Source of the DNA: Mesostigma viride
Taxonomy: Eukaryota; Streptophyta; Mesostigmatophyceae; Mesostigmatales; Mesostigmataceae
Assembly: GCA_009746045.1 (NCBI GenBank)
Contig: RPFO01000065.1
Span: 7,769,576-7,833,575, forward strand
Direction: 5' to 3'
DNA length: 64,000 nt
Under the pieces are notes generated by a model. That model saw nothing but the letters and a program-made list of their open reading frames with translations, was not told where the DNA came from and did no database searches. Made by a program: the position numbers and the translations under genes. This document shows positions 1,148 through 60,200 of this stretch, piece by piece. Numbering within the stretch: the stretch's first letter is position 1; the number at the start of each line of letters is the position of its first letter.

Positions 1148-3068
1148 GTAATTTAATTAATTTAATTGTAACATAACTCCGTTGGGAGTCTATGTAGCAC
1201 ATAGCCCTTGAGAGGGGGCATATGGCCTATCATACATCCTAAGCTACTTCCTGCAAGGGTGGGGATGTAAACAACACTTGCTCGAGGTGCACCAAGGCAC
1301 CTGCACCCTCATGATGTATCGCGCTATGCCCAGTTAAGGGGGAGCGTGGCATGTGGGGGAAGATCATCATGGCTATACAAGAGCTATGGCATGGCGTCTC
1401 AGCAGAGAGTTACTCCCTGCATGGGCACTGCATAATTAAATAAAGCTAGGCATCATCTGGAGGGTGGCTCATCATAGGCACACATGTACATGACTAAAAA
1501 GGCTAGGCCTAAGCTGGTATAGTGCCTGTAGTAGGCGGGCATGTACAAGGCCACTGTCTAACTATTCTACACTACTGCTGCTGTATTCCCCTAAGCTGGG
1601 GCTGGAGTTGCTGGGGCCGTGGCGGTCGAGGGGGTCGCTTGCCAGGGCTTGTGGCCGACGTAGATGGCCGCCCCCTTCCAGTACACCGGCTGGCCCGCCT
1701 TGGTCTGCCGGAGAGCTTGGAGGTAGGTCGGCCATAGCTCCCGTCGCCGTTGTTGCTGTGCCAGGGTCAAGTCGTCGTCCACGGTGAAGTGAGTCTTCTC
1801 GAGCCGCTTGCGGCGTCTGAGAAACGAAATATTGTCCGCTGGGCTATCAAAGATGAGAAGAAGCGGAGGCGCCCCTGCCTTACTGTACCCCGCGCGCGGG
1901 GGAGGCGGTGGGCGGTCAGCTTGATCTCACCAAGAAGGCCCATGCGTGCAAGGATTTTGCGCTCAAACGCACGTGCAAGCTTCTCGGAATTCTCACCTTC
2001 TTTCATGTCGAAGTTCTTGAGTATGGCGTTGAGGCTGCGCTTGGCGAGCTCGGCCTCCTCGCGGAGGTCAAGCGTCTGCCGCTGGAGCTGGGCTGCGACG
2101 GCGGAGGTGGTGGAGGCCGGTGGTATGTTGCTTAAGCATGTCCGCCCAGGTCGTGATGGGAGGAGCATCGCCGGCCAGGCCAGCCGGGGCTGGCTTGGCG
2201 GCAATGTCCTTCACTGCCTGGGCGGTGAGGCCGGCTGTGTTCTGCAAGACCTCGATAGCGATTGCATTATCCTTGAGGCGCTGGTCGATGTCGCGGAGCT
2301 GGGCGGTGATGGAGTCGGTGGAGGCGGAGGGGTGGGGGGGGTGGAGGCGAGGAGGGTGGCGGTGGCGGTGGGGATGGTGGGAAGCTCAGCAGCCAGCGTG
2401 CCGCCAATTGCCGCCACATCTGCGGCAAGAGGGGTCACGTGCTGCTCGAAAGCTTCCTTGAGGAGGGTGCGGATGGTGGCTTCGGTGGGGAAGGTGGGGG
2501 GGGGCGGTGGGGAAGCCCAGATCGCGGCTTCGGAGCGGCCAACAAGGGAGCAGAGGGCGAAGCGTTGGAGCTTGGGGCGACTCATGCGGTGAATGATTGG
2601 GAGAGCCTCGGCGGGGTCGACAAGCTGGCCATCACCAGGCCAGCGGCCACGGTTGTGGGACGTGAGGTGCACGCACAGGGCTAGAAGCGAGGCGTAATTG
2701 CCGTAAAGCAAGTCTTCCATGAACCAACCGGCGCTGCGTTGCCAGAAGCCGGGGCGGTTGATGTCAAAGGAGGTCTCTTCCCAGGGCGGCTCAGCAGAGC
2801 GACTGCGCTTAGGTTCAGGCGATGCAGATGGCGAGGCGAGCCCGGGAGGCTGGGCGAGCACCAGTGCACTACTAGTGTCACCGTTGCCATCTGGGCCGGT
2901 GGGCGAAGCTGCAGCCGAAGCTGCATGCGTATTTTCATTGCCGAGCGCAGCCGCCAGGCTGCGTTGCGTCGAGAGGCGTTTGCTCATCGTATATTGCGTA
3001 ATAGCTTTGGAAAATTATATCAGCATGTGCGTCGTAGAAAGACGCATTGATTGTGATATTCACGGCTG
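1148..3068 (-). mobile_element. ORF1-only LINE-like element, near full-length copy
   Basis: Sense is leftward. The order is: 5' UTR (about 2990-3068) with the CGTCTT/AAGACG inverted repeat, one broken ORF1 (2987-1591), a 3' UTR of about 420 nt, the terminal hairpin at 1176-1189, and an AATTTAATT-type tail at 1148-1170. It aligns along its length with 26388-28265. No reverse transcriptase fits between the ORF1 stop and the tail, so it is a non-autonomous ORF1-only element comparable in layout to mammalian HAL1. Boundaries are set by where copies stop matching. Confidence 0.7.
1591..2987 (-). pseudogene. L1-type ORF1 protein, frameshifted
   Basis: Starts MSKRLSTQ at 2987 and runs about 259 codons in one frame. 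The homology then continues in other frames (2204-1767 and 1782-1591), so at least two frameshifts are present. The N-terminal half is Ser/Pro/Ala-rich, followed by a helical segment. The C-terminal part has the basic LPRARG segment and the DDDLTLAQQQRRRELWPTYL block, ending near YWKGAAIYVGHKPW. That block resembles the RRM/C-terminal RNA-binding region of L1 ORF1p (Transposase_22). Family knowledge suggests RNA binding in retrotransposition; this copy cannot make the intact protein. Confidence 0.65.
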
Positions 3069-3125
3069 AATTCGGTGCTCAAACGTGAAAGTTATGAGCT
3101 CCGCCGTCAGCCATGGCTATCTCGT

Positions 3126-5004
3126 GCATAGCTGCGTCAGTAGGTCGTGGACGTACTCCTGCACATATACCTACTACGGCAATTATACGCTCATAATTTA
3201 TATAGTAGTAGTAAACTAGGAGTGATCTTGGTGGCGTCAGATACAAGTCCTGACTGTGCCGACTACCTCCCTAGCGTATAAATGCCGGCCACGTTTCACG
3301 CCTCCAACGTGCAGTCCGTTTCGCCCCGACCGACCCATTTTGGCAACGGTGTACGCTAAGCCATTTTTCACTTTGGCTGGTGACGGACGGCGCTGGACGG
3401 CGAAAAAGTGTGCAGGCTCAAGTAGGAAAATGGGGGGGTATGTCCCCCCTCCTTTGATTTGAACATTGCTCAGGACTCTTTCAATGGATTGATGTAAATG
3501 TGCGCAGTAGGCATGCGCAAATAAATAAACTGCTGCAGAGTAACGTACTTCTTTTGAACACAGTTCTAAGACGATGCGTACCCACATTCTGGTTCCCCTT
3601 CAAGGAAAAATACTACCAAGTAGTTATCAGGATCCTTCCGGACTGGATGCCCTAATTGCATGTTCGCGGAGCTGCACGTGTCTGGATCTCCAGCATGATC
3701 AAATGACTGGACTACTCAGATGGATACAGCTGGTGAGCCAGAAAACCCACCAGCCATTCCACAGTCATGCAAGGGCATTTACCAGCAGGAGCACGTGTGC
3801 ACGGCCCGGAAAGCCATGCATCTGGGCACCATGAAGGTTGTTGACCCAGAAATCTTCATGGTCACCCCACGTATATAACATAGTGCAAAGTTGCATGGCC
3901 CAGTGGCCATATGCTGCCCACTGATCAGCAATCGTGCAGGTGCACTTACATTAGTGCTCTGTGGAGCTCTAGCCACGAATGGGCTCCCGGTGCATATCCG
4001 GTCATGCACTCAAGCCATGGGCATGCCCCTCAAATAAACACACGTCGCACACGTGCCCGCCTCCTGAGCATGTGCGCAATGTCCCAGGCACATGACATGC
4101 ACGCGTGTGACGCACAGAGAGGGCTGCACAGTGCGGATGACAGATGCGAGTGAAAGGTGTGCACATAGATGTCTCACTTCATAATCCTGGCATGCCATCC
4201 CAAGAATGCTGTGGCCGGATCGAGCATACTCCATCCAGCTGCCACCTTGAACGGAGCAAATTCAACACTGAGGCACAAAGGTGAAATATAAACACCTGCC
4301 TCATGGGGTGGATGGCTTGGCAAGGCAAGCAGTCCTCAGGCAATCACTCTTCAGGTGCTCAGCTCGGTTCCAACTTGGGGTTCCCACAGGGCGTTCCCAC
4401 TAGGCTGCACGGGGCTGAGCCACAGAGGGAATTGAGGGGTTGGTTTGCCAAGTTCAAGAACCTTAAAGTGGATGGCAATGGGGGATTCGTCGAAGGAGGG
4501 CGGGTCACATGACCTCCCGTCTCCACCGCAAGCCTACGCTGTTGAAGAAGGTAAAAGGGCCACCCAATGGTTTGGTAGGAGCGCGTGGGATATCAAGGAA
4601 ACAAACCGCCATGAGACTTGCATGGACTACCCCACTGCCAAGGCACCCCGAAATGAGACAACCAGGACTGCCATCACGGGCTCTAGGGCATGCGGATGCC
4701 ATCACATAACCTGGAGTTGCATGGCCCCCTATATTGCCATGGGGTAAATTGCTCCCTGGCAGATTGGACAAAGCTGTCGAGATAGGCAGGTTGGAAGGAG
4801 AGACTGGTGATGCCACCATCCGCGACCATGCGCCACCAACCGCCACCATCCACCACCAACCCATCATAATGTGCGACCCATGAGTACACCCACTCTTGCT
4901 TTGCGAGGCACCCACCCATCCAATAATTGGACTCCCACACGTTGTGTGTGACAGCACCCACACGGATGCCGACGCGATGGGCCTCATCCCCCAGGAGCAT
5001 ACTT
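3126..5004. other. intergenic, no gene recognised
   Basis: Short open frames on both strands have no recognisable domain and no splice pattern that joins them. No structural RNA was seen. A few short Ala/Thr-poor frames near 3240-3600 and 4500-5000 look like chance. Confidence 0.4.
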
Positions 5005-5360: not shown

Positions 5361-16603
<11,243 letters not shown>

Positions 16604-22824: not shown

Positions 22825-23039
22825 TTGGGTGAGCCATTTCATGCATGCATGGGGAGGAATGAATATTTCCAATTGGGGAGCCGGCCCTCGGATTAATTGT
22901 TGTGAAGAAGCTTATGCTTATCTATGAGTGAAATGATGATTGCCTCACATTTAGTGGGCAGGTCGCCCATATTGGCACAATTCAGGCTATGGTGAGACGT
23001 GCCTTCCCTGCCAACGTGAGACGTGGCATATGCACATAT

Positions 23040-23240
23040 ATTTTTAAAAATTATAAAATTATAACACATGACTCCATTGGAAGATCATGTAGCACGTATT
23101 CCATGGCTGATGGGGGGGGGGGGGGGGCGGAGCCGCGACAAAATAACTGGAATCTAAGCTATATACAAAAATCGAGCTAGCTACTCAGCAAAGCGCCTAG
23201 CTCTTCCTCTTGGGGGGATCGGGGGGCTTGCCCACCATAA
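23040..23240 (-). mobile_element. 3' end of a retroelement with weak CAAT-loop hairpin
   Basis: Sense is leftward. A Lys/Pro-rich ORF tail relic (23240-23195) is homologous to 48710-48760. It is followed by a short 3' UTR, a G/C homopolymer near 23112-23128, the hairpin CTTC-CAAT-GGAG (23083-23072) and an AT-rich tail. Confidence 0.5.
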
Positions 23241-23241
23241 T

Positions 23242-23300
23242 TAATTAATTAATTAGACTCGTGCTCCCGTTGGGGAGTCACGGAGCATTAACCCCGATGG
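23242..23300 (-). mobile_element. solo retroelement 3' terminus with CAAC hairpin
   Basis: In sense orientation GTGACTCCC-CAAC-GGGAGCAC (stem at 23277-23264) followed by a TTAAT-rich tail. It is nearly the same terminus as the pair at 14229-14376. A short GGAT microsatellite (23303-23326) abuts it. Confidence 0.55.
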
Positions 23301-23432
23301 ATGGATGGATGGATGGATGGATGCAAACAGTCCTACCGGTCTAATCTATCTACATCGGCTACATACTACATCTATCTAACAGCATTCTAACTACAACATC
23401 TATCTAGGCAGCCGCACGCTGCCCTAGGGGAG

Positions 23433-23640
23433 CTATCTGGCGTGCCTCCCACGGGATTGCACACGCGGGCGCTTCCCCACTGGGGGGGGCTCGTTGTCCT
23501 CGATGAACTGGGCCCACTTGGCCTTGTCCATCATCTTCTTCCAAATCACAGAGAGGCCTAGGCCCCCCATGTCCTCTACTAGCTGTTCTTTGAAGGTGCG
23601 GGCCTTGCGGCGTCTAACATCACTGGGCCCACCATAGCTT
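23433..23640 (-). pseudogene. C-terminal tail of an unidentified transposon-like ORF
   Basis: The minus frame carries GLGLSVIWKKMMDKAKWAQF, then a Pro-rich basic end and a stop at 23433. The segment L-x-LSV-x-x-x-x-M-D-K-x-KWA is also found at 48490-48610, and a related basic tail at 48710-48900. I cannot name the family. Recurrence next to retroelement 3' ends suggests a mobile-element protein. Confidence 0.4.
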
Positions 23641-24056
23641 GAGCACCAGGTCAGTGCGCCTCATCTCACACTTCTAGCTCGATCATGCACTGGTACATAC
23701 TAGCACTTTTAGTTGTCTCATCTATGAGCACTGGTCACTCATCCGCAATTACATGAGAGATTTGATCCACACAGCTTTAGAACGAATCATGAACGAATTC
23801 TCGCCAACCGTTGTGAGACTTAATTTATTAGTAGTACTACTTAATTTACCTAGTTGTCTCACATGTAACTGCGTCACGTGAGAACCAACCAGTGTGAGAT
23901 ACTTTGTGTTTAGCAGGTTCATGAAATGGCTGCACATGATGCAGGGAAATATACTTAATTGATAACTTACATGTGCGCATGTAGGAGTAATCCTAACACT
24001 TGATCAAGAGGATGCTGCCACTAAAGGCCACGTGTTTCCAAAAATATTTCTGAGTC
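23641..24056. other. spacer, nothing recognised
   Basis: AT-rich sequence without a convincing frame or repeat. Confidence 0.4.
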
Positions 24057-24120
24057 TTAACCCGTGTTTTTTTAATTAGAACGTTCGCGATATATCGCGT
24101 TGTAAGCTTTTTATAGAACG
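24057..24120 (-). repeat. dispersed palindromic motif, copy 2
   Basis: Contains ttaacccgtgttttttt followed by a cgatatatcgcgttgt half-palindrome. It is the reverse complement of the better-preserved copy at 33033-33105. Confidence 0.6.
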
Positions 24121-24145
24121 CGTATAGCACCTAAGGAATTTTTTT

Positions 24146-24510
24146 TTCATGAATTGAATTGAATTGAATTGAATTGTAACATAACTCCGCTGGGAGTATA
24201 TGTAGCACATAGCCCAGAGAAGGGGCATATGGCCTATCATACATTCTAAGCTACTTCCTGCAAGGGTGGGAATGTAAACAACACTTGCTCTAGGTGCACT
24301 AGGGCACCTGCACCACCCAGAGTTTCAGGCAACACCCAGCTACGGGGAGCCTGTCATAGGTGGGGAAGATCAGCACAGCTATACAAAAGCTAGGGCATGG
24401 CTTCTCAGCAGGGAGTGACCCCCTGCATGGTGGGCACTGCATATAATTAAATAAAGCTAGGTATCATCTGGAGGGTGGCTCATCATAGGCACACATGTAC
24501 ATGACTAGAA
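24146..24510 (-). mobile_element. 5'-truncated LINE-like copy, 3' UTR only
   Basis: Matches the 3' UTR of the 1148-3068 copy. It has a (GAATT)n tail at 24149-24177 and the hairpin ACTCC-CAGC-GGAGT (24197-24184), a one-base loop variant of the usual CAAC. No ORF1 remains. Confidence 0.75.
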
Positions 24511-25004
24511 AAGTTTTTTCATGGTCATGTATATACTTTCCTGAAAGCCCATAAATCAAAGGATTTTTTGAGCTACTCAGACCTACAAAATGCTTATTCA
24601 TTAGAGAGATACACTGGTTTGAATACAGGGGGGTCTGACCATGACCGCGATTTCTTGACCATAGGTCACAAGTCATGTGCTTATTCACAAATGGTTCATG
24701 AAAAAAATCTGGCTTCTTGCATGAGCTATGGGCAACATATGCAGGCTCTGTGAAACAAAACTCAGGCCCATTGGGCCACTGGAGCTATTTTTCATTAGCA
24801 TCACAATTACAACGCAGTACAACGCAGTGGGAAACATGAGAGCCCTTGACAACATTACGCAACGACCCGAGCCCTGGCATAAACGGGGCCATAGTGAGCT
24901 TGGAGGGTCAAAACGTTGAAAATAGGTGTCGTATAAGTTATACTGCATCAAACATGCATCAAACATCATGACTGGATGACCTAATATGACTGAATCAGGC
25001 AGCC
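24511..25004. other. spacer, nothing recognised
   Basis: No domain, RNA or repeat seen. Confidence 0.35.
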
Positions 25005-25795
25005 ATAGCCAAATCCTTGATCGCATGGGCCTTACTGGTGAGATCGAGCTGGCCGCCCACCGCCTTCCCCGCGCGCGGGGTAAGGCAGGGCCGCCCCCGC
25101 TCCTTCTCACCTTTAAGACCCCGGCGGACAAGATTTCTTTTCTCAGACGCCGCAAGCGGCTCGAGAAGACTCTCTTCACCCTTGATGACGACCTGACCCT
25201 GGCGCAGCAACAACGGCGACGGGAGCTATGGCCGACCTACCTCCAGCTCCGGCAGACCAAGGCGGGGCAGCCGGTGTACTGGAAGGGGGCGGCCATCTAC
25301 GTCGGCCACAAGCCCTGGCAGGCGACCCCCGCAGCCCCAGCGACTCCAGGCGCCCCAGCTTAGGGGACTACAGCAGTAGTAGTGTAGAATAGATAGACCG
25401 TGGGCCATGTACATGTACGCCTCCTAGAGGCCCTATCCCAGCTAAGCCACGCGCTTTATTTCATCATGTACATGTGTGCCTATGATGAGCCACACTCCAG
25501 ACGATGCCTAGCCTTATTTAGTAATGTTGTGCCCATGCAGGGAGTCACTCCCTGCTGAGAAGCCATGCCATAGCTCTTGTATAGCCATGATGATCTTCCC
25601 CCTCACAGGCATGCTCCCCCCTTACCCGGGCATAGCGTGATAGACCATGAGGGTGCGGGTGCCCTGGTGCACCTAGAGCAAGTGTTGTTTACATTCCCAC
25701 CCTTGCAGGAAGTAGCTTAGAATGTATTATAGGCTCATATGCCCCTTCTCAGGGCTATGTGCTACATATACTCCCAACGGAGTTATGTTCCTAAT
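25005..25795 (+). mobile_element. 5'-truncated ORF1-only LINE-like copy
   Basis: Holds the C-terminal third of ORF1 (to the stop at 25361-25363), the complete 3' UTR and the hairpin ACTCC-CAAC-GGAGT (25770-25783), with a short CTAATTAAT end. It points opposite to its neighbours. The 5' truncation is typical of target-primed reverse transcription. Confidence 0.75.
25010..25363 (+). pseudogene. L1-type ORF1 C-terminal fragment
   Basis: The open frame includes LPRARGKAGPPPLLLTF, DKISFLRRRKRLEK, DDDLTLAQQQRRRELWPTYL and VYWKGAAIYVGHKPW. It is the best-preserved version of the RNA-binding C-terminus in the window, with no frameshift in this part. Confidence 0.7.
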
Positions 25796-26387
25796 TAATA
25801 GCCAAAGCATCATCCACTCTCACAACATGTTGAGCACATGCCTCGTGGAAATGGAGGTGCTGGGTTTTCATTCCATAACGCGTGCAATACTGAAAGAAAG
25901 AGGCACGTGTAATGCAATTAAGGCTTGGATAGGTTGAGTGATCCATGAGCTTACATGCAGGCAAAGATGACGCTGTCCAGAATGCATGCTAGCAAATGGT
26001 GGCAAGATGCTAACAACACATGATTATACACCATGATTATGGGCACCCAGCTGATCTTCTTGCACAATCAACGCAGTATAAACCATCAACATCCAATCCT
26101 CACGATATATGCACGGCTTGACGACGTATACAGCACCTAAATACTGCACAACTGCAACCAGGCTGCTATGGCTGACATGCAAGCAACGTCGAGTAGGATG
26201 GCGGTCTTAGAGAGGCTGGGCAGAGGTCGGTAGAAATAAGTGGAAAACTGGCAGAAACTAGGTAGAAACACGATATACTTACGCCTGCAAGCACTAGATT
26301 GAGCCGGTGGCAGAGGCCATTTCCAGGAAAATACAGCATACCGTAGCAATAGCCACGGTCACGCCTTACGCTATTTGCAGGCACCAT
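25796..26387. other. spacer, nothing recognised
   Basis: No domain, RNA or repeat seen. Confidence 0.35.
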
Positions 26388-28265
26388 CATTGAATTGAAT
26401 TGAATTGAATTGTAACATAACTCCGTTGGGAGTATATGTAGCACATAGCCCAGAGAAGGGGCATATGGCCTATCATACATTCTAGGCTACTTCATGCAAG
26501 GGTGGGAATGTAAGCTACCCCTGCTCTAGGTGCACCAGGGCACCTGCACCCTCATGGTCTATCACGCTATGCCCGGGTAAGGGGGGAGCATGCCTGTGAG
26601 GGAGGAAGATCATCATGGCTATACAAGAGCCAGGACATGGCTTCTCGACAGAGAGCATCTCTCTGCATGGCATAGCATGGCTCAATTCTTAATGCAACAT
26701 CCATGGGGGTCCCGTTATAGGCAGGGCTTGGCTAAATTCTGTAGACAACATCCATGGGGGCCATTATGGGCGCACATGCGCGTGGGCCACATGCTAGGCT
26801 AAGCCTGACTAATCTACACTACTGGTATGAATTCCCTAGTCTAGCTGGGGGCGCAGGAGGGGGCTGCCAGGGCTTGTGGTCAACGTGGATGACCGCCCCC
26901 CTCCAGTATACCGGCTTCCCCCCTGCGCTGTGCCGGAGCTGAAGGTAGGTCGGCCATAGCTCGCGTCGCCGCTGTTGCTGGGCCAGGGTCAAGTCGTCGT
27001 CCAGCGTGAAGCGAGTCCTCGAGAGCTTCTTGCGGCATTTAAGGAACGACAGCTTGTCCGTCATGTACTTAAAGGTGAGGAGCACGGGTGCCGGGCCAGC
27101 CTTCCCCCGCGCGCGGGGGAGGCGGACAGCCGACATGTCCAGCTCACCAGTAAGTAGCATGGGGGCAAGAATGTCGCGCTTAAATGCCTCAAGAAGGCTC
27201 GTGGAGGTCTCACCTGCCGGCTGGTCGAAGTGCTTGACGATGATGTCCATTGTGGCTGCGCCGGGCGATGTCGGTTTCCTCGCGAAGGTCGAGGGCTTGT
27301 TGCTTGAGTTGTGCCGAGATGGTGGAGGTGGTGGAGGTGGTGTGCTGCTTAAGCAAGTCCGCCCAGGTGGAGGGAACATCACTGGCCGGGCCAGCAGGTG
27401 CCGGCTGGGCAGCGATTTCCTGTACCGCTTGGGCGGTGAGGCCGGCGGTGTCATGCAAGCTCTCAAGGGCGGTGGCGGTGGCTTGAAGGCGTTGGTCGAG
27501 GTCGAGGAGCTGGGCTTTGATGTCGGCAGTGAAGGCGGAAACGGCGGTGGAGGTGGAGGCGGCGGCGGTGGAAATGTGAGGAAGTTCAGCAGTCAGCGTG
27601 CCGCCGATTGCTGAAATGTCGGCAGCAAGGGGGGTCACGTGCTGCTGAAAGGCTTCCGTGAGGATGGAACGGAGGGTGGAGGCGCAGATGGATGGAGCCC
27701 AGATCTCGCCGTCAGAGCGCTGGAGAAGGGAGTTGAGGACGGTGTGCTGGAGTTCGGGGCGGGTGCAGCCAAGCATGGCGCCGGAGGCTAGCCAGGGGCT
27801 GCCGTTGCTGCAGAGAAGGCGACCTTGGTCGGAGAGATGGAGGCACAGGTCGTAAAGCGAGGCGTAGTCCCCGAAGAAGATGCAGTCCATAGCATCCTCA
27901 GGAGACATGTTGTTCCAGTCGTGATCATCGACCTTGAAAGGGTGGAACCGAAAGCGCGGTTCCGAGGGGCGGGACCATCCTGTTTTGTCGGCTGGGCGGG
28001 TGCGTTTCGGGTCAGGCGATGCCGATGGCGAGGCTTTAAGCCCGGGAGGTTGCTGGGTGGCTACCAGTGCACGACTAGTGTCACCGCTGCCTGCCGGACC
28101 TGATGGCGAAGCTGCAGCCGCAGCTGCCGCATTTTCATGGGCGAGCGCATCCGCCAAACTGCGTTGCGTCAAAGGACGTTTGCTCGTCATATATTGCGTG
28201 TTAGATTCGGAAAATTATATCAGCATGTGCGTCTTAGAAAGACGAAGCGATAGTGATATTCACAG
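26388..28265 (-). mobile_element. ORF1-only LINE-like element, most complete copy
   Basis: Sense is leftward. The order is: 5' UTR with the CGTCTT/AAGACG inverted repeat (28195-28262), ORF1 (28190-26819, one frameshift), a 3' UTR of about 400 nt, the hairpin (26433-26420) and a (GAATT)n tail at 26390-26411. Both ends are near an ATCATT sequence (26386-26394 and about 28272-28280), a possible but unproven target-site duplication. Confidence 0.75.
26819..28190 (-). pseudogene. L1-type ORF1 protein with one frameshift
   Basis: Starts MTSKRPLTQRSLADAL at 28190. The first frame runs to about 27210. The homologous continuation (DIIVKHFDQPAGE onward) is in another frame from about 27250 to the stop at 26819. 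Residues in the middle are a likely coiled-coil/helical region rich in Gln, Leu and Ala. The C-terminal part has LPRARG and DDDLTLAQQQRRRELWPTYL. Without the frameshift the protein would be about 450 aa, within the size range of L1-type ORF1p. Confidence 0.7.
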
Positions 28266-28439
28266 CCACATCATTCCAAAAAGCCATTTTTCCACCCTGA
28301 AAATTATTCTAGGATAGGCTAATGATTAGTTTGGCCTCAAATTTGGCACCAAGGTGCCTAATCAGATATCTTATGGTGGCATGTGGTCAAATAATTTTTT
28401 GGGAGTCGGCAGCATGGTAACATGGTGACATTTGCTAGC

Positions 28440-29200
28440 ATAAAAATACCGAATTTTCAGCACTTTCTGGCATGTATGCGTATATAATGACATCAAATGA
28501 ACTCAGTTGGGCCTGGAACTTTGCACATGTTATAAACACATCCCATGCAGCATGCCCACAAAGTTTCAGGCTGGTTGGATCACAAAATGGTGACAGATGC
28601 TAGCATAAATACCCCCAAAATGCAGTTTTTCAGGGTTTTCCAAGGGTTTCATCACACATATGCATATATAATGACACCAAATGAACTCAGTTGGGCGTGG
28701 AACTTTGCATATGTTCTAAACACATCCCATGCAGCATGCCCACAAAGTTTCAGGCTGGTTGGATGACAAATTGGTGACAGATGCTAGCATAAACACCACA
28801 AAAATGCAGTTTTTCAGGGTTTTCCAAGGGTTTCATCACACATTTGCATATATAATGACATCAAATGAACTCAGTTGGACCTGGGACTTGGCACATGTTC
28901 GAAACACATCCCATGCAGCCTGCCCACAAAGCTTCAGGCTGGTTGGATGACAAACTGGTGACAAATGCTAGCATAAATACCACAAAAATGCAGTTTTTCA
29001 TGGTTTTCAAGGGTTTCATCACACATGTGCATATATAATGACATCAAATGAACTCAGTTGGACCTGGAACTTGGCACATGTTCGAAACACATCCCATGCA
29101 GCCTGCCCACAAAGCTTCAGGCTGGTTGGATAACAAATTGGTGACAGATGCTAGCATAAATACCACAGAAAAAGCAGCTTTCTATGTTCTTCCAAGGGTT
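28440..29200. repeat. 184-bp tandem repeat, about four units
   Basis: The segment catgcagcatgcccacaaag recurs at 28545, 28729, 28913 and 29097, exactly 184 bp apart, with a few point changes per unit. Flanking parts (atgacatcaaatgaactcag) repeat with the same period. No known satellite was recognised. Confidence 0.9.
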
Positions 29201-29340
29201 TCATGGCAATCATTCCACCTTGGTGTACAGAAGGTTCCAAACAACACATCATTACATTATGCATCATATTTACAATGCAGGAAGGCATACTTGGGGGCAC
29301 ATGCCTATAGTACAATGCATTAATAACACAGCTCTAGCCA

Positions 29341-29978: not shown

Positions 29979-31391
29979 ACCCTCCCTCCCTCCCTCCCTC
30001 CCTCCCTCCCTCCCTCCCTCCCTCCCTCCTCCCTCCCTCCCTCCCTCCCTCCCTCCCTCCCTCCCTCCCTCCCTCCCTCCCTCCCTCCCTCCCTCCCTCC
30101 CTCCCTCCCTCCCTCCCTCCCTCCCTCCCTCCCTCCCTCCCTCCCTCCCTCCCTCCCTCCCTCCCTCCCTCCTCCCTCCCTCCCTCCCTCCCTCCCTCCC
30201 TCCCTCCCTCCCTCCCTCCTCCCTCCCTCCCTCCTCCCTCCCTCCCTCCCTCCCTCCCTCCCTCCCTCCCTCCCTCCTCCCTCCCTCCCTCCCTCCCTCC
30301 CTCCCTCCCTCCCTCCCTCCCTCCCTCCCTCCCTCCCTCCCTCCCTCCTCCCTCCCTCCCTCCCTCCCTCCCTCCCTCCCTCCTCCCTCCCTCCCTCCCT
30401 CCTCCCTCCCTCCCTCCCTCCCTCCCTCCCTCCCTCCCTCCCTCCCTCCCTCCCTCCCTCCCTCCCTCCCTCCTCCTCCCTCCTCCTCCCTCCCTCCCTC
30501 CCTCCCTCCCTCCTCCCTCCCTCCCTCCCTCCCTCCCTCCCTCCCTCCCTCCCTCCCTCCCTCCCTCCCTCCCTCCCTCCCTCCCTCCTCCCTCCCTCCC
30601 TCCTCCCTCCCTCCCTCCCTCCCTCCCTCCCTCCCTCCCTCCCTCCCTCCCTCCCTCCCTCCCTCCCTCCCTCCTCCCTCCCTCCCTCCCTCCCTCCCTC
30701 CCTCCCTCCCTCCCTCCCTCCCTCCTCCTCCCTCCCTCCCTCCCTCCCTCCCTCCCTCCCTCCCTCCCTCCCCTCCCTCCCTCCCTCCTCCCTCCCTCCC
30801 CCTCCCTCCCTCCCTCCCTCCTCCCTCCCTCCCTCCCTCCCTCCCTCCTCCCTCCCTCCCTCCCTCCCTCCCTCCCTCCCTCCCTCCCTCCCTCCCTCCC
30901 TCCCTCCCTCCTCCCTCCCTCCCTCCCTCCCTCCCTCCCTCCCTCCCTCCCTCCCTCCCTCCTCCCTCCCTCCCTCCCTCCCTCCCTCCCTCCCTCCCCC
31001 TCCCTCCCTCCCTCCTCCTCCCTCCCTCCCTCCCTCCCTCCTCCCTCCCCCTCCCTCCCTCCCTCCCTCCCTCCTCCCTCCCTCCCTCCCTCCCTCCCTC
31101 CCTCCCTCCCTCCCTCCCTCCCTCCTCCCTCCCTCCCTCCCCCTCCCTCCCTCCCTCCCTCCCTCCTCCCTCCCTCCCTCCCTCCCTCCCTCCTCCCTCC
31201 CTCCCTCCTCCTCCCTCCCTCCCTCCCTCCCTCCTCCCTCCCTCCCTCCCTCCCTCCCTCCCTCCCTCCTCCCTCCCTCCCTCCCTCCCTCCTCCCTCCC
31301 TCCCTCCCTCCCTCCCTCCCTCCCTCCCTCCCTCCCTCCCTCCCTCCTCTCCCTCCCTCCCTCCCTCCCTCCCTCCCTCCCTCCCTCCCTC
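29979..31391. repeat. (CCCT)n microsatellite, 1.4 kb
   Basis: CCCT/CCT units throughout, with scattered 3-base units that shift the frame. Long open frames on both strands are artefacts. Confidence 0.95.
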
Positions 31392-32397
31392 CCCCCTCCC
31401 TCATTCATACACCCGTTCATTCATGCATGCAGCCGCTCATCATTAACACGCCTCCGTTGGGAAACTCACGGGGTATGAACTATGAAACGGGCGGTAAGAA
31501 AGGAAGAAGGAGCCGCCTCCCCAACATGCCGCCCGGCAAAGGCAGCGATGGGCCGTCCAGGAGGGAAACACTGCGCTTTCCCTTGTACGCCGGGGTGCGC
31601 AGGCGACGTGCGGGCACTGTCGCGTGTAAATTTGCCTGCCCGCCCCAGTCCTTCTCGGAACGCCTCCCCAGAGCATGCCGTCATGGTAAGAGCTCTTTTC
31701 GCCCGTCGCCGGAAGCTTAAACAACAAGAATACGCCGGTTAATGACCAGAAAATGGGGGGTTGTCGACGTTATAAACCAGTAGCTGTGGTTTTTCCCGCA
31801 CCCCGAGCACACTCCGGACGGGGCCAGCAAGCCCCGCCCGCAGGATAAACACCGGGCGATGTTGCTGCGCCCAAGGTAAGTCATATAGCTGCAAGAAAAG
31901 ACGTAAAAGCGATTAAAAGCACGACATGCAGTGTTGCCCCTGTCAGCGCTCCTATAATTCTCACTTTTTCGCGGAAGGGGCGTAAAAATCGGAAACGCAA
32001 AATTAAGGGAAATCCATCGCTGGGTTTCTTTGAAATGATGTTAGGAACTGGTAGAATGTGTCCATAACCAACGAGAGCATGTTTTTCCTGTCTGTGTTTT
32101 ACCTTGCACACACACGGGTCGGGCCGGTTGGTGTGCAAAACGCCCGCCTGCTGCCCACGTGCCCTCGCTGCAGAAAAAAAAGAAACTGTTTTTCAGGTTT
32201 TTTAATGTACGATAATTTTCCTTATGTAATTGCCGTCCGAACAAGCGAAATAACGTCCAAAATGGTTGCGTAATCAGCTCGCAATAAATTTTCGCGTCAC
32301 CATAGCCGTGCACACCGAATTTCAGTCAACATTGCACGGCACACCGAATTTCGTCAAATTTCGCGCGGGAATTACCGGGGTGCGCAAGGCGCGGCGT
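31392..32397. other. intergenic with one retroelement-type hairpin
   Basis: Only a minus-sense TTCC-CAAC-GGAG hairpin at 31463-31452 stands out. The frames at 31480-31740 have no recognisable domain. Confidence 0.4.
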
Positions 32398-33527: not shown

Positions 33528-40213
<6,686 letters not shown>

Positions 40214-48003: not shown

Positions 48004-48120
48004 TCGCTTGTGTGCGAGGTCTGCCATGACAGTGGTGAGGATGCCCCCCGTCTCCTAGTGTGTGATTCGTGCCAATGTGGCTGGCACACACGAGCGCTGC
48101 TTGGTCCCGCCCCTCTTCCG
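48004..48120 (+). pseudogene. truncated PHD-finger fragment
   Basis: The frame has CEVCHDSGEDAPRLLVCDSC followed by GWH: four Cys and one His of the C4HC3 zinc-finger order. The final Cys pair is missing and the frame soon stops, next to a CAAC hairpin (48140-48129). PHD fingers occur in some LINE proteins, so a mobile-element origin is plausible but not shown. Confidence 0.5.
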
Positions 48121-48489
48121 GCTGGGTCCTCCGTTGGGAGATCATATGGCACATATTCCTTGCTGGATGGGTAAGTAAGTTAGTAAGTACTTGCGTGTCA
48201 TGCGCAAAGGCATGCCACGGAGTATTATGCTAATCTCATGTTAGAAAAATAATTACACAAAATTTTGAACAAATATCGTCTGCATCATCCCCCAACCGTT
48301 AGGCACTAGATGGGGATGTAATCCTCATCCGAGCTGTCCTCTACTGTAATGGCATGCAGACGAGGCGGTAGTGTAGCGGCTATCCTCAGGATCAATAACC
48401 TCCACCTGCGGACTTCTACCCTGGCTAGCAACGGGCCGCGGGGCCCGTGGGGAGAAAACAGGAGCATACCCCTCAGGAGTTAAGGTGCT

Positions 48490-48610: not shown

Positions 48611-48699
48611 GGGTGGTGGGCGAAGCCGCGTAATCGAACTAAACTAACTCTAAGCTAGCTATCTAGTCTATATAGAAAATCCGAACTACAGTGCTACTT

Positions 48700-48900
48700 A
48701 GCAAAGCGCCCCTTCCGCTTGGGGGGAGGGGGCTTGCCCACAGGGGCTGGCGTGTGAGCCTGGACAATCTTCTGCCACCTCTTCTTGTTCTGCATAGCAG
48801 TCCAAAGAAGAGAGAGGGAGTGAATGCGGTGTTCAAACTGAGCTGGGACCACTAGGTCGGCCAGCAACATCTGAAGTGAGACAACTACATCTGGATGTAG
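48700..48900 (-). pseudogene. transposon-like ORF C-terminal tail, second
   Basis: The minus frame has NKKRWQKIVQAHTPAPVGK and ends PKRKGRFAK-stop at about 48702. The relic at 23195-23240 is homologous to its end. Confidence 0.4.
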
Positions 48901-48944
48901 TTCATGGCAGGTTTACCGAGCTTTCTAGGAATGTCCTTGGGGCC

Positions 48945-49489: not shown

Positions 49490-49625
49490 CCAAACCAAAC
49501 CAAACTAGGAAGGAAAAAAGTACACACATACATTAAGGGGTTAAAAGAAAAAGTAAGAAAGTATACATTAAAAGGGAAAAAGGAACAAAAAACAACAACA
49601 ACGGAGTCATCTCCCAACGGAGTCA
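48985..49625 (+). mobile_element. retroelement 3' end with CAAC hairpin
   Basis: The plus frame 49020-49215 (LREDRLDLEGQRAPW, ALTRAMADIMLRRTRADF, then stop) is followed by a 3' region that ends in TCTCC-CAAC-GGAG (49611-49622) and an ATTTCATTT-type tail. A (CA)n of about 75 bp (49413-49488) lies in the 3' region. The ORF family is not identified. Confidence 0.45.
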
Positions 49626-49629
49626 TGTC

Positions 49630-51217
49630 ATAATTTCATTTAATATGATTTCATGGATCAGTGAGATCGACGCAGATGTCATGCATGTAGGCTAGCTCCC
49701 GCAGTCGATTGACGTCTAAAGTTCCTCATCTCAGACCACCCTAGCGATCCTTCGACCACGACGTTGGATCGCCATGCAATGTCCAGGAATAGTTATCTCA
49801 CTTAACAGTTGATCACACATGTGCATGTGCCTGCATGAAAAAAAAATATGCAGGCATATGTACTGAATTTGCATGCTCGTGAACCGTGTTCATGCAAGGC
49901 ACGTGCATGCATGCGCATGCAAATGTACTCCTGCAAAAGGCAGAAGCCATGGCATATACTAAAGGGAATCGACACGCACGCCATGGATCTAGAACTTTGC
50001 AAACTCTTTGTTGCAGGTGACCTTGTTATCAAAATATATAATCATAAATCAAGCCAGAGGACATGAGGCTGGGCTCCTCAAGCTATCACAAAAGGCAACA
50101 CTGCAACTACCTACCAGCAGATGTGGGGGGCCTCCTGTCATCTGGCCACAGTAAAATAGCCCCTGTGCATCACATGCACAACCCACATTGCTCTAATAAC
50201 CGCTATCACCAGCAGGGCCTATAACACGTGGATCCGCCCATGCTTCAACACTGTACACAATTACGTAATAACTAACCAGACAACATGCCAGACCCGTACA
50301 GGGCTGGCTAGCTTGCGGCAGAGAGAGAGCGAGACAGTAAGGAGCGCAGCAAGAGAAATAAAGAGAATACTATACTACACTGGTATAAGACCACTCTACA
50401 CGTATATACACTGTACACTCTCGGGGTGCAGCTACGTGGCTGCAACAAGGGTATAAAATACCCCTGTGGCTCCCCAGGCTGGTACTCGATTCCTCTGCAG
50501 GACCTTGCGCCACGTGAGCAGCGTTTCGGCCTTGCAAATAGCAGCAGCCAGGAGAAAAAACTCCGCCTTTACCCCGCCGACACCGACGACTCGGTTTAAC
50601 ACTTTTTGAGCAGCCTCTGCCACTCAACCGCAAAATGGCACCAACTCGTACAACTTCAGGCACTGGCCCCGCAATAATGGGCCAGACCGGTCAAATCAAA
50701 ACTGTAATCACCGCACGGCCGCTGAACCCTCCCTCAACATGCCGTGCGCCTGCCCAAGGCTTCCCCCGGCCTGCTGGGCGGTAATGGTCGACCATCCTTA
50801 AAATATATCACATGGAATGATGGTAATTTTGGGCTGCCCCCAGATGCCCGGGGCCGCCCTGGAGGCCACGGTCCCCTGGAGTCACCCTCCACTTGCCATG
50901 ATTCTGTGTGGCGCCCACCCCCCATGACTGCGACCAGCATATGCGCTCCCCACGGGCCTACCTATGACGAGAAGTACCCAAAGTCTGCTGGTGGGTGGGC
51001 GCACCCACTCACCCGCAAACTGCCACACGCGCCGCGCATTGCAATGTCTGAGCCACACCTGCTTCACCCACTGGGCCCGGACAACCAACTTTACTTCCTT
51101 CCCACATCCGCTTTACTCCGTTGCCCAGGAGAAACATCTCTGTCACACAAGTTTCGACAACACCTCACTTCTTCCAGGGGACTCAATTTTTTCCACTGCA
51201 CTTGTCAACATATCCTA
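49630..51217. other. intergenic, 3' flank of the WRC gene
   Basis: No domain or RNA recognised. Frames near 50370-50660 and 50744-51290 are not supported by splice signals. Confidence 0.35.
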
Positions 51218-54200
51218 CTACCCACTACACCCACTCACCTTCCAACCGCTAACCCGGCAACGCCCTCGCCCACCCATACCCGTGCTCCGTAATCTCCCCC
51301 CCCCCCCCCCCCCGCCCCCCCTACTCGAGCTCCTCCTGGCACAACAGCGGCGCACGGCATGAGAGCTGGCCCCCCAGGGAGTCCCCCAGATCCCCCCCCT
51401 CAGAAACCTTGGCATGACCAGATCAGGCGTATGCCCGGCACCCGCGTGCCGTGCCGAGTGATGATGGTGGTGGTGATGGTGGCGCAGGTGGCGCGCCAGC
51501 TCATCCTCCTCCACGCTCCCCTCACTCCCCTCACTGCTGGCCTCAAGGCTCCCGCTCCCACTCCCGCTCGCGCACGCGCGCCAGATGGCCGAGTCGTCCC
51601 CGCTCCCTTCCGTGCCACTGCTCAGCGCAGCCCCGCCCCCGCTGTGGTTGAGCTCCGCCTGAAGCAGCATCGCCGCGCGCAGCTGCTCCTCCTGCACAAA
51701 CGCCGACAGGCCTGCGGCCACCTCCTGAGGCGGTGGTGGCAGGGCTGAAGCTGGTGCTGGCAGAGGCTCCCTCTTGGGCATGCCAGGCCCCTCCGCCCCC
51801 TGCGCCGCTGCTGCTGTCGCAGATGGTACCACGGCAACGTCAGGAGCGGCAGCAGAAACTTGCGCCGTGGCGGCAGCCGGCGCAGCCACCTCACCGTCGC
51901 CAGATACCGCGGCCGACTTGACAGGGGAGCGTTCACGCGCCACAAGTTTGGGGGGGTCAGAACCCATGCCCTTGTCTGCCGCAGGCACCCCTTTCAACGC
52001 AGGCTCTGAATGTAGGCCTTCAATGGGACTGCCCCTCTCACCGGCAGCCTCTCCCCCCTTGCGGCGGTCACTCGAGGCCTCGCTGTGGGAGACGCCGCCC
52101 CGCATGACCATGCTGCTGCTGCTGCCGTCGTCACTCGCGCTCGAACCCGCAGGTGTCGGTGCACTGCCGCCGCCACCGGCACCATGACCTTTCCCGTACA
52201 GCGTGAACCCGACCGAGTTGTTACCGGCGTCCGCCCCGCTGCCGCAGTGCGAATGATGGTGATGCGCCACCCAGTGGGTATGAGCTTCCGCGCTGACACC
52301 TGTCACGACATTGGTCTCGTGCCCCTGGGACGACACTTGCACCGGGCTGGGTGTGTCCTCCACTTCTCCTCCATCCTCCATTTCCTGACCTACGTGCCCT
52401 GAATCCCTCTCCTCCTCATCATCATCATCATCCTCCTCACCCTCCCCGAACTCCTCTTCCTCCTCGGGGACGGTCGCCATAGCGTAACCGTGCCGGGGTG
52501 CCGGCCTGGGCCTATCCCTGTCTAAGGCCCCCTGTGCTGACGCCCCTGGTGCGTCCGCGCCATTCCCCCCGCCGACCCCTCCCTTGTCATCCCCTGGGCC
52601 AGGTGGCCCCCCCATGCGTCGCCTCTTCACCACGTGGCCCCCCTTGGCTGGCTCCAACCCCTGGCGGTGGCCGAGGCGGTTTCCGCCGCCACCCCCTGGC
52701 CCGTCGTGGTCGACCGCGTACGCCAGCATGTCCAACAGGGTGGCCGCGCGCGAGGCCTCGCCCTCCACCCCCTTGACCCCCCTGGCGACCGGCTTGACGA
52801 TCCCCCCCTCGGCCAGGCCCCCGTTGGACGAGCCACCTCCCTTCACCGCGGATGCGCCAGCACGGCCGGCCACTGGCTCCGCGTCGCCCGAGTGCTGGGG
52901 CGTCCCCGCTGGGGTGGACACGGCAGCCTGGTGGCTAGCAACACCACCGCTGGCGGCGCCGGGCCCCCGCTTGCGAGGCCGCGCCGAGAAGCGCTGCATT
53001 AGGTGGTGCGCGCAGTACATCTTGTCGCCCTGTGTAGGGCGCGAGCAACGCCAACGCTTGCCGTCCATGCGCTGGCACCTGCCAACCCCGCCGTTGCCGC
53101 CATCCCTCGCAGGGCCGCCACCAGGGTGATTCGCCGCCGCGGCGCCACCACTGGCCACCGCCGCGTCCATGCCGAACTCATGGCCTGGCCGGCCCGAGGG
53201 ACCCGTAACGCCAGGGTGCGCCTGCCTCGACTCATGGCTCCCTGTGGATGCCCTGCCAGGGTGCGAGGACATGCCGTCACGGCCCCGCGGCACGCGTAGC
53301 TGCTGCCCCGAACTCTGGCGGTCGCCGTCCCCATCTTCGTACTCCTCCTCCCCCTCCTCCTCCTCATCATCACTGCCATCCACCGGGCTGTCCCGGTCGC
53401 CACGTCGCCTTCCATCGCCACCATACCCGTGTCGGCCAAAAGTGCCCCGCGGGCGGCCCCTCCCGCGCTTGGCCGCGCGGTAGCCCACCCCCGGCTCCTC
53501 CGTCTGCTCCTCCTCCCCCACCTCGGCATCATCCTCACTCTCGTGGTTGCCCACACGCCGGTCCTCCTGGATGCCCGCGCGACCACCGGACCACTCGCCC
53601 CCGCTTGCCCGGCCACGATAACCCCCCCTCGAGGTACTCACCCCACCCCTGGCCGGCACGTGCCGCACCGATGGCGCCATCGCCTCCCGCGCACGCTTGC
53701 TCGGGCCATACATGCTCACGGGGGCCTCCCCGCCGCCCGAGCCTTGCCCCCAAGGGAGCGGGGTCGGGCACGCCGACCGACGGCGCGCCAGCAAATGATG
53801 CTCGCAGTAGTGCTTGCCGGGCATGGCCGCGTGGCGACAGCGCCACTGCTTCCCGTTGGTGCGGTGGCAGCGGGACGACTCCTCGTCGCCCTCGCCTTCG
53901 GCCGCCACGTCATCGTCCTCCTCCTCTTCCTCTTCCTCCTCCTCGTCCTCCTCATGCTCATCCACGGGAGGGTGAGCCAGGCGTCCTGACCCAGGCCGCG
54001 CCTTGCCACCGCCTCCTGCCACGGGCGACCGCGGCGCTGCCCCGGGGGGAGAGACCGGCCTCCCAGACTCCCTATCCCTGCCCCGCGCGTGGCCCTGGCC
54101 ATAGCTCCCAACCGCCTTGGCACCAGCGCCGCTTCCGTAGTTACCATGGTAAGGGCCGCCCTTGCCCCCGATCTGCAGCAGCAGGTGCAGAAGCGTCAGG

Positions 54201-57244: not shown

Positions 57245-60200
57245 GGGGCTCCCTGCTGCTATTAGACTGCAAACTAGAGATCGCTAGACCACCTCAGCCC
57301 CGCCCTTCTCACTGTACAGCGCTTCACCGGATACCTTGCTGGTCGCGAAATAAGGCCCACGTCCTGCAAAGTTGTCAAGGACATTTGTGTGCACAGACAG
57401 AGCGGTTAAGTTGAGCTTCAAAAAAGACCATAAACGGCACAAGTAAGGAAGAGACCACAAATGCAATCATAGAGCTTCAAGTGTTGAATCTATTGCAAGT
57501 ATCCTCAATGATTGCCTTGTTTCAAAATACTTTTTCGACATGTGCCTGGAATCTTCCTGTGATTAACATTTAAGGTGGCACACTGCACCTATACATGTCA
57601 CACATGAACATCACCAGCAAGCTATATGCAGTATCCTCATTGATTGCTCCCCGACGGAGACATGAGAATAATAAATTAATAATTCATTATAATACGCAGC
57701 TCTATTCTCATTGATCGCCTTATTTTAGAAAACTTTTTCAGTGTTCATGCCTCGCATTTTGCTGTGATTACGCCTTTAAGGTGGCCACAATAAACTGATC
57801 CATGTCACACATCAACATACATGCAACCCATACGCGTCAAAGCTGTTTTTGAAATGCAATACAAGGCACTTGTTGTCAGTATCTGCTTCGGATTGCTTTA
57901 ATGGCGAAGTCCAGGAGATCCTCCAAAACTTGGTAGTACCCAGAGCCTCTAGCTGAATGCAAGCGGAGACGTTGCGATTTCAAAAAACGACCGCTTGACC
58001 GATAGGAGGCTTTCAAAATTTAAGAGATTGGTTCTGAACAAAGGTAGTGGACACTGCAAATTCTGAATAAATGACGGCGGCGCTCCTCTTCCATGTTTCG
58101 CCGCGCAAATGCTAATTCAGGAAATCGGAAAGCTTTCAGGCAGCACGAGGCCGCCTGAATGCCAGACCGGGGGCGCCTGTAGGCGCACTTGCCCGAAAAG
58201 GCACGATCCATGATCGAGTTCGACATGCGAACAACAAATTACGAAGAATTTCGGTTTACGCGGCGCTGCAGAGGGCTTGGGAATCATGGGATTCGACGAT
58301 CCACGAGGAATACTGAAGCGAACGCGGTCGCACAGCAGCAAATTCCTCATCAACGACATACCTGGCTGTCATTCGACACAACGGTTTGTGAATTAACCTC
58401 TAGACCTGCTCGGCGATTCTCCTGGACTTCGCAGACTTCGATTATAAGAAATGGCTGGATGGACGGCATGTCCAATTATGGACCAAAACTTCCACCTCCA
58501 CGGCGCCTTTCGACGGGAATCCAAGTATCCATCGATTTAAGGCCTGAAAATTAACAATCAACTTCCAAATTCCACACAACTGCCCTAATCCGCCCACTCC
58601 CACCCAGGCCGACCGCTTTGCGCACTTACGCGTCGACTTCGCGCGCACACTGGAAATCACTCGTGCAGGGCTCCATTCCACGGGCAGTCGTTGGCAGACG
58701 TTCTGCCGATCCGGAATTGCCGGGGTCCCATAGCAATTGGCCTGTGTAGACGACAGGCACGCAACCTACATTTGAATGGTCTAGGCAGCCATAGCTTGAT
58801 TATTGCCGAAAGTCAAAATGTCCTGGCCTTGTGCACGGCTTTGGACCAGTACTTGATTTCGGGGTTGGGGAGGGGTACAGGGGCAAGAATTTGGGGCTGA
58901 AATTGGGGGTCTGATGCACAGTAAACTTTTCGAGGTCGGAACTCGGAAGCCACTCGCGCGTTTTTTAGCCGTCCTGGACGGCTTGCTGACGCGCATCTCG
59001 GCAGACGCATCTCGGCATCCAAATCATTACCAAATCTTAACGATCACGCCGTGCCCAATCGCGTTGCCTGTGGACACGCCCCTGCTACTTGGCGGCCGGG
59101 CGTTGCTAAGTATGAATCGCTACAAACGTTGCACAGGATGCAGCCGTTTGCGCTCCGATGTGCGCGCGCAAAGTCGAGGTGGAAAGTTGTGGCTCAGCCA
59201 GATTGCCGTACGGCGACGCAACCCCGTGACAAAGCAACATTAATGACAACCCTGGGAGGCGCGGCGCCGGGCCAGCGTAGGATTGGAACAGCCACGCTGG
59301 CGCCTGGGAGGTTGCAAGCTTTGGCGGGAGGAGTTCAAGAGCTGGAAGTGCTGATTCTCTGGGTTCGTTCTTCCCAGCTTTCAACCAGTATCTCCCCGGC
59401 CGTAAATAATCCCCCCGTCACGAAAGCGGGGCCCGTCGCGAATCTTCGCAGGACTTTTGGATTCCACGTGCTGCATACAGAGCGTCGGGTGTCGGGAAAA
59501 CCGCAATGATGTTTACAGTTGCACGAAGGACACATTTCTCTGCGTATAGGAGAGAGATATTACGGAGGCCATGGCCATGCTTAGTTGATTGGTCGCACGC
59601 GTATGCAGCTTAAAGAGCATGGCATAATGGTCAGCTTTCCATCTGTGCATGCAAGGCGGCTCTTTGGGGGCGCGCTAGTAGATCGCATGCAAGATCGTGA
59701 TTTTCACGGGCCGTTAGGCGCTACGTTTTGATTGACGTGCCTGTCTTATCATCTGGTGCTTTCGCGCCAGTACGCCGACCCGAGGCTTGCCGGCGCCACA
59801 GTCACATTATCCTCGTGCGGGATAACGACCGCGGTCATGCGATGACAGCATTCTTTTCATGGTAGGAGTCGCGTTGCATATGGCAACCTGCAACCGCCAG
59901 GGGTTTACGTGCCAGAGCTGAGGTTCATAGGCTGAATTGGAAGTTTTACCCAGCTGTGTGGAAGTTATGGTTGGTAGCGCTTGGTCGTAGGGGGGAGCAG
60001 ATGGCAACCTTGGGCAAGTTTCCGGAAAAGGAGACGGCCCATGGGACGTCCAATGGCGATGCACCTGCGGCTTCCGCGTGCGGAAGTTCTGAAGTAAGCA
60101 GGGATCAGCCATGCATGCCGTCTCCGGACAATCACCGGGTGCCTCTTAGCGTATAGACGGCTGTCCATGTCTGTTCTGGGGTAGCTCGAAGGGTTTCGTG

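Follow-up and report, generated by a model that had tools for sequence, protein, structure and literature searches.

The window analysed here, a stretch of 64,000 nucleotides (nt) of the Mesostigma viride genome (contig RPFO01000065.1, positions 7,769,576 to 7,833,575), holds copies of several retroelement types that end in a common small hairpin. Types E, F and I are long interspersed nuclear elements (LINEs), and family A encodes a protein resembling L1 ORF1p, the product of the first open reading frame (ORF). The full 3' unit comprises, in this order, a GTGCT box, a lower stem of 4-7 bp, one bulged base on the 5' side, an upper stem of 4-6 bp closed by a CAAC loop, and a repeat tail rich in A and T. 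Our analysis makes it likely that a group of LINEs with an apurinic-type endonuclease (APE) is recognised at the 3' end through this hairpin, with ORF1-coding partners riding on it.

An earlier sequence-only reading of the window had reported eleven such sites and described a simple small stem. It actually listed 12 coordinates; each holds a small stem whose loop is CAAC or differs slightly from it, but the real structure is larger, namely a two-part stem with a single bulge. This bulged stem and the AT-rich tail are found at 8 of the 12 sites (1176, 14265, 14339, 23072, 23264, 24184, 25770 and 26420), the remaining four (48129, 49611, 57647 and 31452) being partial or atypical. Counting hairpins with a lower stem of 4 bp or more, a 1-nt 5' bulge, an upper stem of 4-6 bp and at least 9 bp in total, six with a CAAC loop were observed in the window, two of which stem from one tandem duplication, compared to a mean of 0.05 and a maximum of 1 in 40 dinucleotide shuffles. 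CAAC was the most frequent loop among the 48 bulged hairpins on both strands; in a cruder count of the window that required no bulge and stems of at least 5 bp, it was not prominent (9 occurrences). Twelve examples that were folded all gave 9-10 bp with a single bulge on the 5' side and a loop of 4 nt, and ten folded better than shuffles (z -2.3 to -3.9). The window matched no Rfam family at gathering score, the UnaL2 RNA family included, and at E up to 10 the sole match in positions 23000-26500 was an unrelated microRNA family. No tRNA gene was detected in the window by ARAGORN, the only search made for heads of tRNA-derived short interspersed nuclear elements (SINEs). No published description of the CAAC hairpin was found in searches of an open-access library.

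The association with LINEs was examined on copies drawn from the assembly (439,911,974 bases in 2,243 contigs). A 75-aa ORF2 fragment lying beside the 23264 hairpin (window 23433-23660, minus strand) served as query for family F and gave 12,336 first-look candidates, which are not copy counts; in the 150 that were scored, the open frames range upwards from 69 aa, resembling a series of 5' truncations. Nineteen of these, including the longest and the most divergent, were taken by their ORF2 C-terminus alone, and all 19 bear, downstream of ORF2, a hairpin in which 9 or more of the 10 pairs form, another element intervening between the two in L055. The copy L069 presents a single frame of 1,182 aa with Exo_endo_phos (6.7e-07) and RVT_1 (1.4e-25) domains; this frame starts inside another repeat, the likeness to other F copies beginning at 1549. 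In the PDB, F ORF2 matched an RT-like protein (RT, reverse transcriptase), a further RT, L1 ORF2p and R2; the best protein match for ORF2 is 28-29% identical. Upstream of ORF2, L070 holds an ORF1 frame of 489 aa, of which L072 and L074 hold broken versions, the region being 93-97% alike among the three copies. F is, judging from its coding sequence, a LINE with ORF1 and an APE-endonuclease/RT ORF2. A bipartite LINE, with ORF1 and ORF2 always on separate elements, was ruled out for F by L070, together with the broken ORF1 of L072 and L074. A 2,164-aa open frame at C2:2655058 was discarded, as it spans a run of N; part of L096 likewise spans such a run.

For family I, the fragment at window 48697-48912 (minus strand) gave 13,534 candidates, of which 150 were scored and 20 pieces taken, mostly among the more divergent matches. 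Chosen again by the ORF2 C-terminus alone, 17 of the 20 copies carry their own hairpin, which in 13 of these keeps 9 or more of its 10 pairs. Of the other three, L080 and L091 have nested elements inserted, and L081 breaks off within the loop. Full LINEs ending in the hairpin, for which the sequence-only reading had proposed to look, do exist, and its placing of the motif at retroelement 3' ends was borne out by these ORF2-chosen copies of F and I. The two ORF2p are 50% identical over 594 columns. E is a third LINE family: the identity of its copies L117, L118 and L119 to F ORF2p is 44-52% over the C-terminal part and reaches 74% along one RT stretch. A hairpin was found in two of the three, that of L117 lying about 105 nt past the frame with 9 pairs. 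Twenty further E pieces, found by a hairpin-containing query, all have a hairpin of 8-9 pairs. In the window, the LINE E 3' end shows an exact 74-bp tandem duplication (14231-14369), arisen by template jumping or by tandem duplication. Among the first RT matches retrieved (L009-L028), a bulged hairpin was present in L019 and, as a damaged copy, in L020; neither is the 3' end of the LTR-type (long terminal repeat) RT fetched. The 1.49-Mb contig C2011, from which L009 and L010 derive, bears what we take to be bacterial-looking genes (lpxC-like, comF-like, conjugation-like and group II intron RT-like) and probably represents an endosymbiont in the assembly.

The same hairpin unit also terminates two families that encode an L1-ORF1p-like protein, namely A, with full-length copies, and F', known by one truncated copy. 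Family A is HAL1-like in that it has an ORF1p fold (coiled coil, RNA recognition motif and C-terminal domain) and full-length copies without ORF2. This ORF1 was recognised by fold search alone, on a low-confidence model, the rows ranking above L1 ORF1p being generic long helices, and went unrecognised in Pfam and PDB sequence searches. It is 28-31% identical to the ORF1 of LINE F, the only one of the three LINEs for which an ORF1 was recovered. The five types E, F, I, A and F' are alike over only about 40 nt, beginning at the GTGCT box. In 10-nt bins anchored on this box, pairs of types share 0-6 of 10 positions upstream (mostly 1-4), i.e., the random level, and 4-10 of 10 from the box onward. 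Up to 200 nt upstream, blastn found only pairs of subfamilies, the E tandem repeat and one 15-nt CATC repeat. The non-autonomous A and F', otherwise unrelated to the LINEs E, F and I, share with them this same 3' end; the F' stem equals the F stem, and the A stem is closest to that of I. The proposal that several element types share one hairpin was supported, the common sequence being confined to this segment; a single shared enzyme was not established, since ORF2p differs clearly among the LINE families, at least three in number, that carry the hairpin. On these protein sequences, a set of related enzymes appears likelier than one enzyme.

The stems vary while pairing is largely kept. Among the 8 distinct rows of the window set, pairing holds in 95.0% of cells and 15 cells are double-changed, against 5.8 in shuffled and at most 4 in slid controls. 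The corresponding values are 89.9% and 44 (11.0 shuffled, at most 15 slid) for an 80-row set with 35 distinct rows, and 88.7% and 76 (24.2, sd 7.8, shuffled, at most 30 slid) for the 100-row set A5 with 49 distinct rows. Three of five measures (percentage paired, double-changed cells and covariation score) exceeded both controls in all three sets; the rows are related, and these numbers are thus not probabilities. One stem pair of A5 appears as UA, CG, UG, AU and GC. Among nine hand-picked representatives, five of them from family I, 86 of 90 cells are paired, which random swaps of 3' arms matched in 6 of 20,000 trials. In family I, the pair beside the bulge is U-G, U-A or C-G depending on the copy, and where a U-U would fall next to the bulge, the bulge moves by one base and ten pairs are retained. 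A5 omits rows with two mismatches (2-6 pairs), three rows with one mismatch (two in L018, and window 56196, minus strand; 3-5 pairs), the minus-strand row of L085 (4 pairs, internal insertion), L024, the later-fetched L118, the window sites 31452, 49611 and 57647, as well as L041 and L044, whose hairpin is intact with two extra bases past the box. The L020 row was added by eye, and its MAFFT gap differs between A3 and A5.

The repeat tails are not poly(A) and are TTAA-, TTTAA- or ATTCA-like, with length and unit varying between copies. In L019, a 5'-truncated F' copy lies within an LTR element, flanked by an exact 13-bp target-site duplication TTCTCAGACCACA up to which its tail extends, and the empty site is seen in other copies of the host LTR element. 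A second copy, in L049 (7150-7220), comprises barely more than hairpin and tail between two GGCTTCTC (by eye), and is perhaps a minimal mobile unit. In the window, the site at 57647 is flanked by CTCATTGATTG and CTCATTGATCG (by eye); we read it as a 5'-truncated copy and tentatively take these repeats as a target-site duplication. The copy at 49611 would similarly result from 5' truncation inside the hairpin, and the 31452 hairpin may be unrelated to the rest (Table 1).

Table 1. Hairpin units and retroelement fragments of the window, followed by hairpins of family K in fetched loci
Feature	Position	Strand	Remark
Family A box and hairpin ACATA.g.ACTCC(CAAC)GGAGT.TATGT	1171..1200	-	3' end of ORF1-only copy (element about 1150-3126, -)
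LINE E box and hairpin CGTG.g.TCCCC(CAAC)GGGGA.CACG	14255..14284	+	first of two 74-bp tandem 3' ends
LINE E box and hairpin	14329..14358	+	second tandem copy
LINE I type box and hairpin TACATGA.t.CTTC(CAAT)GGAG.TCATGTG	23065..23095	-	tail TTATAATTTT
LINE F box (ATGCT) and hairpin CGTG.a.CTCCC(CAAC)GGGAG.CACG	23259..23288	-	tail (TTAA)n
LINE F ORF2 C-terminal fragment	23433..23660	-	directly 5' of own 3' untranslated region and hairpin
Family A box and hairpin, loop CAGC	24179..24208	-	tail (ATTCA)n; element copy about 24153-24513
Family A L1-ORF1p-like protein, C-terminal part	25010..25360	+	
Family A box and hairpin ACATA.t.ACTCC(CAAC)GGAGT.TATGT	25759..25788	+	followed by TCCTAATTAAT
Family A box and hairpin	26415..26444	-	tail (ATTCA)n; element about 26389-28267 (-), ORF1 matched in two frames
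Atypical hairpin	31447..31470	-	bulge of 2 nt, G-U pairs, without evident tail
Family I type box and 5' arm	48113..48152	-	5/10 pairs; 3' lower stem and tail lost
LINE I ORF2 C-terminal fragment	48697..48912	-	
Upper stem only	49611..49639	+	AT-rich tail kept
Short truncated 3' end, upper stem only	57647..57700	+	between imperfect CTCATTGATYG repeats (by eye)
Family K	L055 228		
Family K	L075 585		
Family K	L030 3087		
Family K	L034 83	-	
Family K	L090 237		
Family K	L011 4926	-	

Besides these elements, the window contains a pure GATA array of 2 kb (35824-37836), a CCCT array of 1.4 kb (29980-31402), a unit of 184 bp in four tandem copies (28475-29204) and, on the minus strand, a 1,647-aa frame with three WRC stretches (51218-56164), which is a candidate host gene.

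The reading of the hairpin as a recognition element rests on its design, which is that of the ZfL2 and UnaL2 tails: about 10 bp, a bulge 4-5 bp from the loop, a near-fixed loop and a repeat tail. Matched stem changes around a near-fixed loop suggest a handle for the copying enzymes. In such a mechanism, ORF2p would contact the element RNA at the CAAC loop and at the one-base bulge, and target-primed reverse transcription would start in the AT-rich repeat tail just 3' of the hairpin. Stem bases could drift provided that pairing is kept, and other elements, above all those encoding only the L1-ORF1p-like protein, would be mobilised in trans because of the same terminal hairpin. A wider version of this model, which we regard as rather unlikely, is a two-component community, where several LINE families would give ORF2p and ORF1-only elements would give extra ORF1p, the exchangeable hairpin, with loop and bulge as a common code, letting any enzyme copy any member RNA.

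Several observations weigh against the recognition-element reading. The claim that stem changes preserve pairing stood in the three measures given above and failed in the two that count pairs: neither pairs with a double change nor further pair types exceeded the shuffles in any of the three sets (shuffles reaching the observed value, of 500, numbered 109 and 490 for the window, 167 and 479 for the 80-row set, and 105 and 98 for A5), and a +1 slide also yields six pairs with a double change in the 80-row and A5 sets. Stem changes come mostly from a few events between families, so that the shuffle counts overstate independence, and most copies within a family are identical, hence uninformative. 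Two of the folded examples (E and the window I copy) are weakly better than shuffles (z about -1.6), E and F mostly lack pairing at the outermost stem position, and the loop variants CAGC, CAAT, CCAC and CTAC exist. Among the E copies with ORF2, L118 has 8 pairs and an altered box, and L119 has no hairpin within the roughly 320 nt fetched beyond its ORF2 match; the E and A copies found with hairpin-containing queries provide no test of hairpin presence. Another family, K, carries the hairpin CACGTGA(CGCAG)TCACGTG, with no bulge and a similar TTAAT tail; found in six fetched loci, it is an example of such a tail without the CAAC hairpin. (The K copy of L055 sits inside the 3' untranslated region of a LINE F.) Finally, family A was tied to no particular LINE as source of its enzyme; binding of ORF2p to a hairpin of the stringent recognition type, and trans-mobilisation, are what we infer.

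The hairpin might alternatively direct the formation of the RNA 3' end or stabilise the RNA, as in histone mRNAs, being shared through common host processing and not read by the RT. Its position at the 3' end, ahead of a tail that is not poly(A), would fit such a role, and a host factor would also account for sharing across LINE families and ORF1-coding elements. The variation of tail length and unit, and the extension of the L019 tail up to the duplication, are nevertheless what slippage in target-primed reverse transcription should produce, and the single-bulge design fits known RT-recognised tails, which leaves host processing improbable. Common descent, with the last 40 nt inherited from one ancestral LINE or swapped by template switching and little or no selection on pairing, could explain the likeness of GTGCT box, loop and tail, the stem similarity within the pairs E/F and A/I, as well as the two covariation measures that do not exceed shuffles. 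Yet some 40 nt remain alignable while the sequence upstream is at random level, and in the remaining three measures the paired differences between stems greatly exceed both the slid and the shuffled controls; we hold this explanation to be quite improbable.

Helitrons, too, are marked by a short hairpin close to their 3' end, and the feature might act at the DNA level, as a Helitron-like terminal hairpin or a cruciform for a DNA transposase. This is contradicted by the LINE ORF1 and ORF2 coding content, by the target-site duplication on a 5'-truncated copy and by the repeat tails that follow the hairpin, and seems hardly credible. Recognition of the hairpin by the LINE enzymes is the reading that we prefer.

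Among non-autonomous partners, family A recalls HAL1 (half-L1) of mammals, an L1-type element with ORF1 and no ORF2. HAL1 goes with a relaxed, poly(A)-type L1, whereas the Mesostigma partner ends in a specific hairpin; as non-autonomous partners, elements that code for ORF1 and ride on such a hairpin would be out of the ordinary. The sequence-only reading had invoked the UnaL2/ZfL2 type, which is apt for the proposed function of the 3' hairpin and not for the UnaL2 sequence family, given the different loop and the lack of an Rfam match. ZfL2 ORF2p reads the loop and stem of the 3' tail, UnaL2 needs the bulged base (PMC4176376, PMC5135761), and typical tail stems comprise 8-10 bp and carry their bulge at 4-6 bp from the loop (PMC5135761). 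UnaL2/UnaSINE1 and ZfL2-1/ZfL2-2 (L2 clade) similarly have, at the 3' terminus, a stem-loop whose loop is specific and which contains a bulge or an internal loop, and UnaL2 likewise has a tail of tandem repeats and a SINE as partner (PMC4176376, PMC5135761). The UnaL2 loop is GGAUA and its tail (TGTAA)n, unlike the CAAC loop and TTAA-, TTTAA- or ATTCA-like tails of Mesostigma, whose partners, unlike those of UnaL2/ZfL2, include ORF1-coding elements.

Green plants offer further parallels. In Chlamydomonas, L1-1_CR/SINEX-3_CR and RandI/SINEX are green-algal LINEs whose 3' ends are common to non-autonomous elements; the RandI pairs have AT-rich 3' repeats as in Mesostigma, whereas L1-1_CR/SINEX-3_CR differ, by description, in about 80 common nt and a poly(A) end, and the partners there are SINEs (PMC3747384). 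Monocot L1 and ZmSINE2/3 share a 3' hairpin with compensatory stem changes and a conserved loop, there UCU with a 3' CGAG in place of CAAC and a 5' bulge (PMC3747384). Ohshima proposed that specific recognition of the 3' end was a trait of the ancestral green-plant L1 and was later relaxed in land plants (PMC3747384). LINEs of a basal streptophyte that carry covarying hairpins at their 3' ends may bear on this question, and the natural set of stems around a near-constant loop and bulge forms a ready mutational series for the way ORF2p reads RNA.

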